This document shows, one piece after another, positions 41,329 through 45,930 of a stretch of 64,000 nucleotides of DNA (positions within the stretch are counted from its first letter, which is position 1; every line of letters starts with the position of its first letter). Under the pieces are notes generated by a model. That model saw nothing but the letters and a program-made list of their open reading frames with translations. It searched no databases and was not told where the DNA came from. A program made the translations under genes and the position numbers. Origin of the DNA: Zoogloeaceae bacterium G21618-S1 (GTDB lineage Bacteria > Pseudomonadota > Gammaproteobacteria > Burkholderiales > Rhodocyclaceae); assembly GCA_027214125.1 (NCBI GenBank), contig JAPWHF010000004.1:223777-287776 (forward strand). Reading direction: 5' to 3'.

Positions 41329-41862
41329 ATGACCCAGATCGCCCCCCTGACCCTCGACACCGCCGACACCGCGACCGCCGCCACACTCAAGGCCGTCAAA
41401 ACCAAACTCGGCATGGTGCCGAACATGTTCGCCACGCTCGCCCACGCCCCGGCCGCGCTCAACGGCTACCTCGGTTTATCCGAGACGCTGGCCGCCGGCC
41501 GCCTCAGCGCCGCACAACGCGAAATCGTGGCGCTCGCCGCCGGCCAGGCCAACCACTGCCAGTACTGCCTGAGCGCGCACACTCTGATCGGAAAAGGTGC
41601 CGGCCTGTCGCCCGAGGCCATCGCCGCCGCGCGCCAGGGCAAGGGCGGCAACGCACTGGACGCGGCCATCGCCGACTTTGCACGCGTACTGGTCGAGCAG
41701 CGCGGCGTGGTCTCGGCCGAAGCCATGACCGGCTACCGCCGCGCTGGGCTCGATGACGGCCTGATTCTGGAAGTGATCGCCAACGTCGCGCTCAACACCC
41801 TCACCAACTACACCAACCACGTCGCCGATACGACCGTGGATTTCCCCGTCGTCGCCGTCTGA
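41329..41862 (+). CDS. AhpD-like carboxymuconolactone decarboxylase family peroxidase
   Basis: A 177-residue protein with the AhpD active-site pattern E-x11-C-x2-C-x3-H: E65, C77, C80, H84 in the segment REIVALAAGQANHCQYCLSAH. Such proteins act as small alkylhydroperoxidases or reductases. The LGMVPNMFATLAHAPAALNGYL opening is typical of the uncharacterised peroxidase-related subgroup. GGAG lies before the ATG. It is divergent from the AraC gene, and the P460-family gene follows 25 bases downstream. Confidence 0.87.
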   Translation: MTQIAPLTLDTADTATAATLKAVKTKLGMVPNMFATLAHAPAALNGYLGLSETLAAGRLSAAQREIVALAAGQANHCQYCLSAHTLIGKGAGLSPEAIAAARQGKGGNALDAAIADFARVLVEQRGVVSAEAMTGYRRAGLDDGLILEVIANVALNTLTNYTNHVADTTVDFPVVAV

Positions 41863-41887: not shown

Positions 41888-42436
41888 ATGAAAACCACGC
41901 TCACCCGCGCGCTGCTCGCCAGCGCCCTCGCCCTGCCGCTGGTCGCCACCGCCAGCGACTTTTCGCCCTATGTCGATGCCAAAGGCGGTATCAGCCGCCC
42001 AACCGACTTCCGCACGCACTTCGTTCATCTGGGCTCCTGGGCGGTGCTGGACGAAAAGTCCGCCGCCCGCGGTCTGCACGATGTGTACACCGAAAAGGCC
42101 TCGGCCGAGGCCTATCGCAAAACCGGCAAGTTCCCCGACGGCGCCACGCTGGTGAAGGAAATCCGCAAGCTCGAAACCGGCGCGATGACCACCGGCGACC
42201 CGGTGGTCTGGGGCTCCGATGCCGCCGTGTGGTTCGTCATGGTCAAGGACGCCAAAGGCCGCTTCGCCGGCAATCCGCAATGGGGTGACGGCTGGGGCTG
42301 GGCCATGTTCAAGGCCGACGCCCCCGCCGCCAACGTGGCGGCCAGCTATGATGCCGACTGCAAAGCCTGCCACATCCCCGCGGCGCAAACCGATCGGGTG
42401 TTTATCCAGGGCTACCCGACGCTGATCCCGCACTGA
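41888..42436 (+). CDS. cytochrome P460-family c-type haem protein
   Basis: A 182-residue periplasmic protein with a signal peptide (LLASALALPLVATA) and the family body (DFRTHFVHLGSWAVLDEKSAARGLHDVY...), ending with a single haem motif CKACH near 157. It is a second member of the family in this window and only distantly similar to the first. Family members include hydroxylamine-oxidising P460 and cytochrome c'-beta, which binds NO. AAGGAG precedes the ATG. Its AhpD-like neighbour suggests a redox or detoxification role (inference). Confidence 0.8.
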   Translation: MKTTLTRALLASALALPLVATASDFSPYVDAKGGISRPTDFRTHFVHLGSWAVLDEKSAARGLHDVYTEKASAEAYRKTGKFPDGATLVKEIRKLETGAMTTGDPVVWGSDAAVWFVMVKDAKGRFAGNPQWGDGWGWAMFKADAPAANVAASYDADCKACHIPAAQTDRVFIQGYPTLIPH

Positions 42437-44159: not shown

Positions 44160-45791
44160 TCAATCCGTGCTGAAGTTCAACAGCCGGCGTTTGTTGGGGA
44201 TGCGCACATAGCGCCCGCTCATTTCGATCAGCCCGGCCTCGCTCAACTGTTGGAAGGTTCGCGATAGCGTTGGCGGCGTGAGATTCAGATAGGAAGCGAT
44301 GACCTGCTTCTGCGCAGGCAGTACCGCTTCGAGCACGCCGTGCCCGTTGATGCGGGCATGTGCCAGCAAATGATGAATGACCCGTTCCATGCCGGTTTGC
44401 AGCGCAAAGGCTTCGAGCTCGGCCGCCACCGTGTGATAGCGACGGCCCAGGTGCGCCAGCACCGCTTGCGAAAACGGCAGACTGCGCGTCAGCAGTGCCA
44501 GCAAAGGCGCTTGCGGAATCAACAACAGCACAGAAGCCGTCAGCGCTTGCGCGAACACCGTATGCGCCGAGCCGGTCAGCGCATCCGCCTCGCCAAACAC
44601 CTGGAGCGGGCCGACAATATCCATGACCTTTTCGGCGCCGCGGGCGTTCGACACCGCCAGCTTGACCTGCCCGCTGATCACCAGATACACGCCATGCGGC
44701 GCATCCCCGCGGTTGAACACCACCTTGCCCTTCGGCATGCGCAGCAGACGCGAAGCGGACTCGAGGCCGTCGCGCTCAGTCTTGGTCAGCCCTTGAAACA
44801 GCGCATGCCGAGACAGCACCGAGCTGTCTTCCTTGAGCCGCTCGACAATGCCTGCTGCCGTGGCTTCCGTCTCACTGATGGCCGGGCGCAAGAGCACCAG
44901 CAGCACCATCTGGCCATGCAGCGCCAGATGCGTCAGCCGCGCCCACACCGATGCCATGGCGCCCTGAGCGGCACGGCAACGCAGTCGCCCTTCAAAACGC
45001 CCCGCCATCAGGACTTCGCTGACCAGCACCGGAAACCGCTGCGCTTCATCGGGCGCCAGCACATCCGCCAAATGCTGCGTGCACAAGGCGTCAGCCGACT
45101 CACCAAAGAAATCGGCCGCTGCCGTGTTGGCATGCAGGATGGCCGATGGCATCAAGGCCGAATCGACCGACACAATCAAGGCCGGCGCCTCGCCATGTGC
45201 GCACATCTCGAGCACGCCGGCCTCGCTCGCCAGCAGCGCCGCGCTGTGCTGCGCCACCACATCGCTGAAGCTCGGCTCGGTCGCCGTCGGCGCCATCAAG
45301 GCCTGTGCCCGCGCCTCCCAGCTGGCCATTCCGTCACACGGCAAGGCGGTTGTCTTGCCCCCCGTCGGGGACGCACTCGCCTGTGCCGCACGCAGCGCCT
45401 TGGCAACGACCTGGTCCTCGCCCTGGATATGGTCGACCAGCCAATCGCCGAGAAACATCAACAAACGCTGCCCGTCGAGCACCCCGTCCTCGCCCAGCGC
45501 TTCGACCATATCGCCCACCTGCGCGAGGAAGCGCGCATGGCTCTCATGGTGGCCGTCGCTCTGTCTTGCTTCCAGGCCACACAGGGCCATCAAGGCCTCT
45601 TCGGTGCTGAAATGCACCTGCGCGTACTCGGTGAGGTAACCGAGAAGCAAGCGCACCTCGTCCGCCGACAATTCGGGCGACTCGACCAGCTTCACCGCCG
45701 TCGCGTTGACCAGCTCAACCAGCCCGCGATGCTGCTGATCGACCACGTCGATGTCGGTTTTCAGGGAATCGTTCCACGCCACAATCTGCAT
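44160..45791 (-). CDS. hemerythrin-PAS-Crp/Fnr fusion transcription factor
   Basis: A 543-residue regulator with three parts. An N-terminal bacteriohemerythrin domain has all seven iron ligands: H21, H60, E64, H81, H85, H121, D126, with the usual HxxxE, HxxxH and HxxxxD spacing. A PAS-like domain lies at about 190-320 and a Crp-type cyclic-nucleotide fold at about 330-440 (MPKGKVVFNRGDAPHGVYLVISGQVKL). A C-terminal Crp helix-turn-helix includes VIASYLNLTPPTLSRTFQQL. No Fnr-type cysteine cluster is present. The di-iron domain should bind O2 or NO, making this a direct gas-to-DNA switch (inference). The recognition helix keeps S-R but has Pro where Fnr has Glu209, so its target may differ. GAGGTG precedes the ATG. 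An FNR-type palindrome lies upstream. Confidence 0.87.
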   Translation of the reverse strand: MQIVAWNDSLKTDIDVVDQQHRGLVELVNATAVKLVESPELSADEVRLLLGYLTEYAQVHFSTEEALMALCGLEARQSDGHHESHARFLAQVGDMVEALGEDGVLDGQRLLMFLGDWLVDHIQGEDQVVAKALRAAQASASPTGGKTTALPCDGMASWEARAQALMAPTATEPSFSDVVAQHSAALLASEAGVLEMCAHGEAPALIVSVDSALMPSAILHANTAAADFFGESADALCTQHLADVLAPDEAQRFPVLVSEVLMAGRFEGRLRCRAAQGAMASVWARLTHLALHGQMVLLVLLRPAISETEATAAGIVERLKEDSSVLSRHALFQGLTKTERDGLESASRLLRMPKGKVVFNRGDAPHGVYLVISGQVKLAVSNARGAEKVMDIVGPLQVFGEADALTGSAHTVFAQALTASVLLLIPQAPLLALLTRSLPFSQAVLAHLGRRYHTVAAELEAFALQTGMERVIHHLLAHARINGHGVLEAVLPAQKQVIASYLNLTPPTLSRTFQQLSEAGLIEMSGRYVRIPNKRRLLNFSTD

Positions 45792-45916
45792 TCACTTCAC
45801 CTCAGGAGTCTCCCGGAACCGGCCATTCGCACACCCTGGCCGGCCGGCCCGCTCGCGCGGGCACACGTGGTGCCGCGCATCAAGCCCCGATTGTCCTGAA
45901 CGGACCGCGCCGCGTG

Positions 45917-45930
45917 TTGATGGATATCAA
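45917..45930. promoter_or_regulatory. FNR/DNR-type binding palindrome
   Basis: TTGAT-GGAT-ATCAA is a perfect FNR-family site, 126 bases upstream of the hemerythrin-Crp ATG and 150 upstream of the gene at 46081. It suggests oxygen- or NO-linked control of one or both genes, by Fnr/Dnr-type proteins or by the fusion regulator itself. The rest of the 289-base gap shows no other clear site. Confidence 0.72.

Follow-up and report, generated by a model that had tools for sequence, protein, structure and literature searches.

Described hemerythrin sensors act via chemotaxis or cyclic-di-GMP enzymes. The Vibrio diguanylate cyclase VcBhr-DGC carries a hemerythrin domain, and the Ferrovum phosphodiesterase Bhr-HD-GYP is active in the reduced but not in the oxidised state; no O2 adduct was visible for the Ferrovum hemerythrin (PMC8846402), so that O2 binding is not deducible from a ligand set. 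On the side of the Crp/Fnr regulators, DNR proteins sense NO with heme (PMC12750200). The DNR box is given as CTTGATnnnnATCAAG in PMC1274295, and in HcpR2 proteins a Pro at the CRP-181 position accompanies GTAACnnnnGTTAC instead of TTGAC (same paper).

Here, we analysed a gene located in a stretch of DNA of 64,000 nucleotides (the window, a term that we use for the whole stretch) whose predicted product is one chain with a hemerythrin that has intact di-iron ligands, a putative relay made of a helix and a PAS-like region, and a DNR-branch Crp module. It thus pairs a di-iron-type domain with a DNA-binding module, which makes possible a direct test of the signalling of such a site in one protein. 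No description of a hemerythrin-Crp fusion was found in the open-access PMC literature, among the matches listed. Both component families are known; what appears to be new is the combination, together with its probable kinase ancestry and the predicted loss of the TTGA contact. We favor, at slightly better than even odds (about 55%), a reading in which the protein would be a kinase-derived one-component regulator that is placed under FNR/DNR control, recognizes a new DNA motif and uses its di-iron site to sense O2 or the redox state.

Architecture and distribution of the fusion

A first-pass annotation of this DNA had proposed a bacteriohemerythrin domain with all seven iron ligands, a PAS-like region, a Crp fold and a Crp helix-turn-helix within 543 residues, and our analysis confirmed this architecture (Table 1). 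The Hemerythrin, cNMP_binding and HTH_Crp_2 families exceeded their Pfam cut-offs of 25.3, 27.5 and 27 bits, respectively. PAS_4 (residues 218-297) stayed slightly under its cut-off in the window's fusion (21.3 versus 23.1), and PAS families exceeded theirs in several relatives (PAS_9 in L086, 46.0 versus 27; PAS_4 in L083, 35.1 versus 23.1). The fusion also scored 92.2 with TIGR02481 (cut-off, 51.75) and narrowly missed the cut-off of the bacteriohemerythrin subfamily model NF033749 (83.5 versus 84).

Table 1. Features of the fusion locus, in window coordinates
Feature	Position	Strand	Evidence or detail
Hemerythrin-PAS-Crp(DNR) fusion gene	44160..45791	-	543 aa, ATG start, stop codon included
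Crp-type helix-turn-helix, residues 469-538	44178..44387	-	PF13545, 53.5 bits
Codon of Pro507, at the Glu position of Fnr (E209), CRP (E181) and DNR	44271..44273	-	Alignment
Crp effector-domain fold, residues 351-436	44484..44741	-	PF00027, 63.5 bits
PAS-like region, residues about 204-302	44886..45182	-	PAS hits in relatives, model
Bacteriohemerythrin domain, residues 13-132	45396..45755	-	PF01814, 47.2 bits; likeness to DcrH-Hr
Ribosome-binding-site-like GAGGTGA	45797..45803	-	Ends 5 bases before the fusion ATG
-10-like hexamer GACAAT	45890..45895	-	4/6 to TATAAT; starts 29 nt after the box centre
FNR/DNR-type box TTGAT-N4-ATCAA, TTGATGGATATCAA	45917..45930	.	Pattern search
Divergent neighbour, 381 aa	46081..47226	+	No Pfam/NCBIfam match at E <= 0.01

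The di-iron ligand set reads H-H-E-H-H-H-D (H21, H60, E64, H81, H85, H121 and D126) and aligns with that of DcrH-Hr (2avk), the best PDB sequence relative of the hemerythrin part (E 8e-8). All seven ligands are invariant in the 20 full-length fusions that we found, the window's included, and they are conserved in relatives down to 39% identity to it. Across 17 fusions, residues 1-135 contain 33 invariant columns versus 8 in residues 136-323. Such conservation argues against a reading in which the hemerythrin buffers iron or O2 or is a relic, and in which the PAS or Crp pocket, or the protein level alone, carries the signal. We consider this reading unlikely, even if the PAS-like and Crp folds are both kept and the box upstream of the gene, described below, probably sets its level.

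The AlphaFold2 model of the fusion (mean pLDDT of 83.5, pTM of 0.82) was obtained from an alignment of 21 rows, corresponding to 17 fusions and four stand-alone Crp proteins, which was used instead of an earlier one with seven close relatives (mean pLDDT of 67.4). In this model, the hemerythrin part consists of four long helices, another helix (residues 175-198) precedes the PAS-like region, and residues 201-300 have block pLDDT values of 87 to 96, with an order of helices and strands that fits PAS as judged by eye. The best 50 Foldseek rows for the model were all of the Crp/Fnr type, without a PAS structure among them, so the PAS and hemerythrin assignments rest on sequence. Cysteine is absent from residues 324-543, and the fusion would therefore have no Fe-S cluster of the FNR kind. 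CRP, the cAMP receptor, has an Arg-Ser pair in its phosphate-binding cassette; in the window's fusion, residues 400-416 (GEADALTGSAHTVFAQA) contain no Arg and hence no such pair, and some of the other fusions have an Arg in this stretch, as read without a strict alignment to CRP.

To determine how widespread this architecture is, we surveyed 395 genomes from 68 genera of the GTDB family (match threshold E <= 1e-75, up to three candidates scored per genome). Twenty genomes matched, 19 with full-length proteins and one (G609) with a partial protein at a contig end. The full-length fusions amount to 20, the window's included, in seven genera of this one family; genome G102 has two copies (C25:35852-37645 and C10:62686-64482, loci L086 and L087) as well as a stand-alone sister, L082. 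Seven of the 10 Denitromonas genomes examined, among them the genome that holds the window (the source genome), carry a full-length fusion. Identity to the window's protein reaches 95% in D. ohlonensis SFB-1, 94% in D. halophila SFB-3 and 76% in D. iodatirespirans IR-12. In an order-level sample (399 genomes, E <= 1e-30), the matches listed included only the window's own fusion and G102, both from the same family, and samples of the class (369 genomes, E <= 1e-62) and the phylum (398 genomes, E <= 1e-58) returned only the own fusion. Because these groups were sampled and at most three candidates were scored per genome, a hemerythrin-Crp fusion with a weak match or a different build could have escaped detection.

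Several other candidates were discarded. Four long Crp-matching frames from other genera (L035-L037 and L039) gave Crp families alone in Pfam (E <= 0.001) and were taken as long stop-to-stop frames. Five more (L033, L034 and L040-L042) turned out to be Crp-PilJ proteins, a second architecture found in the family, about 500 aa long, with an N-terminal Crp module and a C-terminal PilJ domain (L033:1282-2811-, L034:1686-3287+, L040:1053-2552-, L041:908-2500- and L042:1520-3010+). The Crp-PilJ gene adjoins a cytochrome cd1 gene in G029. In G017 (L033), it directly adjoins a hemerythrin gene, and this pair, considered as a split fusion, was set aside as a Crp-PilJ case.

Origin of the two halves

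The phylogeny of the Crp module was reconstructed from 82 rows (20 fusions, one partial and 61 stand-alone proteins). For the stand-alone set, we took those retrieved loci whose frame lacked a hemerythrin and matched Crp over 190 residues or more, discarding duplicates and anything shorter; since most of these loci had been collected for their high similarity to the fusion, the sample is not random. The 20 fusions and the partial protein formed one clade (support of 100/99), with the stand-alone L082 of G102 as its sister (98/98). The DNR-like protein of the source genome fell into the group that holds the fusions (91/85, and 96/94 one fork deeper). Within the clade, the two fusions of G102 (G102a and G102b) and that of G744 branched first, followed by G002 and then by the remainder, and a subclade of 18 fusion rows that includes G002 received 100/92. 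The tree program warned of long branches and of groupings of distant Crp rows close to the root that may be spurious; its long-branch list includes none of the fusion rows.

A sequence comparison of the Crp half with the PDB placed P. aeruginosa DNR first (3dkw, E 1.7e-27). The Crp half is assigned to the DNR branch, a name taken from this similarity and from the NnrS-linked relative in the source genome rather than from a reference DNR row in the tree. That relative (L044:5126-5827-) is located beside NnrS-like and hemerythrin-like genes (names given by eye), close to a gene for an FNR with its cysteine cluster, and both this FNR and the DNR-like protein keep the Glu of the recognition helix.

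Membership in the DNR branch would also fit a specialised NO regulator of denitrification, in which NO is the signal and is bound either by the di-iron site or, in the Crp half, by a heme site like that of DNR. Along these lines, cytochrome cd1 (E <= 1e-90) was found in 18 of the 19 fusion genomes versus 84 of 131 family genomes (Fisher p of 0.004 once the seven fusion genomes among the 84 were removed, uncorrected for kinship). However, the association is modest and three fusion-free Denitromonas have cd1 too, and the hemerythrin that was added is closest to the domain of an O2/redox sensor (DcrH-Hr). Moreover, no heme-bound DNR structure against which a heme site could be judged from sequence is known (PMC12750200). 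NO as the signal is possible, but we regard it as doubtful.

For the N-terminal half, a hemerythrin sensor kinase is the probable ancestor. In G102a, the hemerythrin and the helix that follows share 39 to 41% identity over about 203 residues with hemerythrin sensor kinases of the same family (L103-L106, equivalent to L108-L111, with kinase parts recognised by eye). A profile of the H-box made from five hemerythrin sensor kinases matched after the PAS in G102a (28.6 bits) and G102b (21.0 bits), and the best scores among 2000 shuffles of each were 7.0 and 9.4, respectively. In both proteins, the phospho-acceptor His has changed to Gln. An H-box that lacks its His in these basal fusions suggests a hemerythrin sensor kinase whose core probably gave way to the DNR module. 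A convincing H-box was not found in G744 (4.2 bits) or G002 (3.3 bits), Pfam HisKA gave no match in eight fusions at E <= 1, and in the window's fusion the H-box stretch is absent and Pfam detects no histidine-kinase domain.

Recognition helix and upstream box

The recognition helix of the window's fusion is LTPPTLSR, which bears out the earlier observation that S-R is kept and that Pro takes the place of Fnr Glu209 (CRP Glu181). Among the 20 fusions, this position is occupied by Pro (13), Ala (3), Ser (1) or Glu (3), and the S-R after it is invariant (20/20); the stand-alone rows have Glu in 60 of 61 cases and Gln in the other. Judging from these alignments, the loss of Glu is derived and clade-wide in the fusions (17/20). 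Since stand-alone relatives almost always keep this residue, the product probably reads a motif other than TTGAT-N4-ATCAA. The suggestion of the first-pass annotation that the fusion may prefer a different motif is thus strengthened to a probable one, in line with the Pro precedent of HcpR2. A motif modelled on that of HcpR2, KTAAY-N4-RTTAM, was rejected as the target, as it did not exceed its reversed control in any of 14 genomes (4 versus 24 in the source genome). The palindrome GTAACCwwGGTTAC is present in all eight Denitromonas genomes searched but was set aside too, as the fusion-free G009 also carries it; in G003 (L146:1501-1514) and G009 (L158:1501-1514) it lies close to the beginning of a chemoreceptor-like frame (by eye).

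The perfect TTGAT-N4-ATCAA that had been noticed 126 bases upstream of the fusion gene was found again and is the only one in the window. The 4.39-Mb source genome contains this sequence at 13 places and the reversed pattern at none. Of the 20 fusion genes, 13 have a TTGAY-N4-RTCAA box in the 300 bp before them (the window's own and those of G001, G002, G003, G004, G006, G007, G458, G506, G539, G568, G590 and G739), versus a mean of 0.0065 and a maximum of 1 in 2000 mononucleotide shuffles of the same upstream regions, with the qualification that the 13 cases are not independent, as the own, G001, G003, G004, G006 and G007 genes are close Denitromonas orthologues. Each of the 13 promoters with a box also has a hexamer that agrees with TATAAT at four or five of six positions and starts 29 to 30 nt past the box centre (in 12 of them it scored best when offsets 25-40 were scanned, and in G001 it was identified by reading; the shuffle control covers the box alone). 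This spacing would place the box near -41, a class II position, and the box is predicted to be part of a class II-like promoter.

In G002, a gene that looks like pqqE by eye is found upstream of the fusion, with the box between both genes, and the neighbours of the fusion vary across other genera, indicating that the box goes with the fusion gene. In Denitromonas, it may additionally act on the divergent gene (Table 1), which adjoins the fusion in none of the other genera examined. As the box is conserved in 13 of 20 fusions and Glu is lost in 17, FNR or DNR is probably the activator of the gene and would switch it on via the predicted site. All 13 box-bearing fusions lack the Glu, and the idea that the box might be bound by another Fnr-type protein has therefore become the probable one. 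The three fusions that keep Glu are the basal G102a, G102b and G744, none of which has a box, and four others (G594, G544, G466 and G489) have neither, so that the box and the loss of Glu are not strictly coupled.

The same distribution bears on autoregulation, in which the fusion itself would still bind TTGAT-N4-ATCAA and the box would be its own site. The invariant S-R of the recognition helix and the presence of a box at 13 of the 20 genes are what such a circuit would show. Yet boxes and Glu never coincide in one fusion, a Pro at CRP position 181 is linked to another motif in HcpR2 (PMC1274295), and the source genome has an FNR and a DNR-like protein with Glu intact, all of which makes autoregulation quite unlikely.

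Further perfect boxes in the source genome lie near genes for a stand-alone bacteriohemerythrin, a cytochrome c, an OmpW-like and a UspA-like protein (names given by eye), positions that would suit an FNR/DNR regulon. The bacteriohemerythrin-like gene (contig C5, L133:1573-2043+) has its perfect TTGAT-N4-ATCAA at L133:1501-1514, with the box centre 65 bases before its start, and an FNR-type box is found some 300 bases from the start of a pqqD-like frame (L137). Genes resembling pqqD and pqqE by eye adjoin the fusion in G002 (L045:6656-7894+) and are found 1.6 kb from it in G739 (L088:3494-4910+). These pqqD/E-like genes excepted, no neighbour that might hint at a target was conserved across genera in the 16 loci compared. 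In the window, a cytochrome P460 family gene (41888-42436, 91.2 bits) lies a few genes off, on the opposite strand to the fusion, and an AhpD-like gene (41329-41862) is located beside it.

Proposed mechanism and comparison with known systems

In the favored reading, the fusion gene would be activated at low O2 or in the presence of NO by another Crp/Fnr protein, either FNR or the organism's own DNR, via the box. The fusion would then act on a motif of its own, no longer TTGAT-N4-ATCAA. Its di-iron site would read O2 or the redox state, and the PAS would relay the change to the Crp dimer. Hemerythrin-controlled cyclic-di-GMP enzymes suggest by analogy that DNA would most likely be bound by the diferrous (low-O2) form. 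In the resulting cascade, anaerobic control would lead to the synthesis of a second regulator with its own direct readout of the gas state. Our certainty decreases from the activation via the box to the changed motif and then to di-iron sensing through the PAS relay. Binding of iron, gas and DNA by the fusion is what we infer from its sequence, and O2 or redox sensing, DNA binding by the reduced form and the PAS relay are proposed by analogy.

A broader evolutionary scenario, which we offer tentatively and at well below even odds, is that a kinase became a transcription factor by the swap with a DNR module and left the FNR/DNR code as its gene gained the box, resulting in an insulated second tier. 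In this scenario, the box would have arrived in that part of the tree where Glu changed to Pro and later to Ala or Ser. If true, the second tier would integrate O2, through the di-iron site, with NO or redox signals, through the DNR pocket and the PAS. The kinase relatives, the basal fusions (with Glu and no box) and the derived fusions (without Glu and mostly with a box) form an ordered series, in which domain swapping, a change of DNA specificity and promoter rewiring can be traced stepwise.

Among known systems, the Crp fold and the helix-turn-helix of the fusion are shared by P. aeruginosa DNR (3dkw) and by the source genome's DNR-like protein. With about 230 aa, DNR stands alone and its recognition helix contains P-E-T, whereas the fusion has the added hemerythrin and PAS and reads P-P-T. 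FNR/ANR belong to the same superfamily and share the type of box, but the cysteine cluster that FNR uses for its [4Fe-4S] is missing in the fusion. The HcpR2 branch of Crp/Fnr has Pro at the CRP Glu181 position like the window's fusion (PMC1274295); unlike in HcpR2, motifs of its type are not enriched in the fusion genomes. The hemerythrin-HisKA kinases (L103-L106) have a hemerythrin and helix like those of G102a, and a degenerate H-box is left in G102a and G102b; where these kinases have their core, the fusions have the Crp module. Finally, DcrH-Hr as well as VcBhr-DGC and the Ferrovum Bhr-HD-GYP (PMC8846402 for the latter two) contain a seven-ligand bacteriohemerythrin within a signalling protein, as the fusion does, but their outputs are chemotaxis or cyclic-di-GMP enzymes, while in the fusion the output would be a DNA-binding Crp module.
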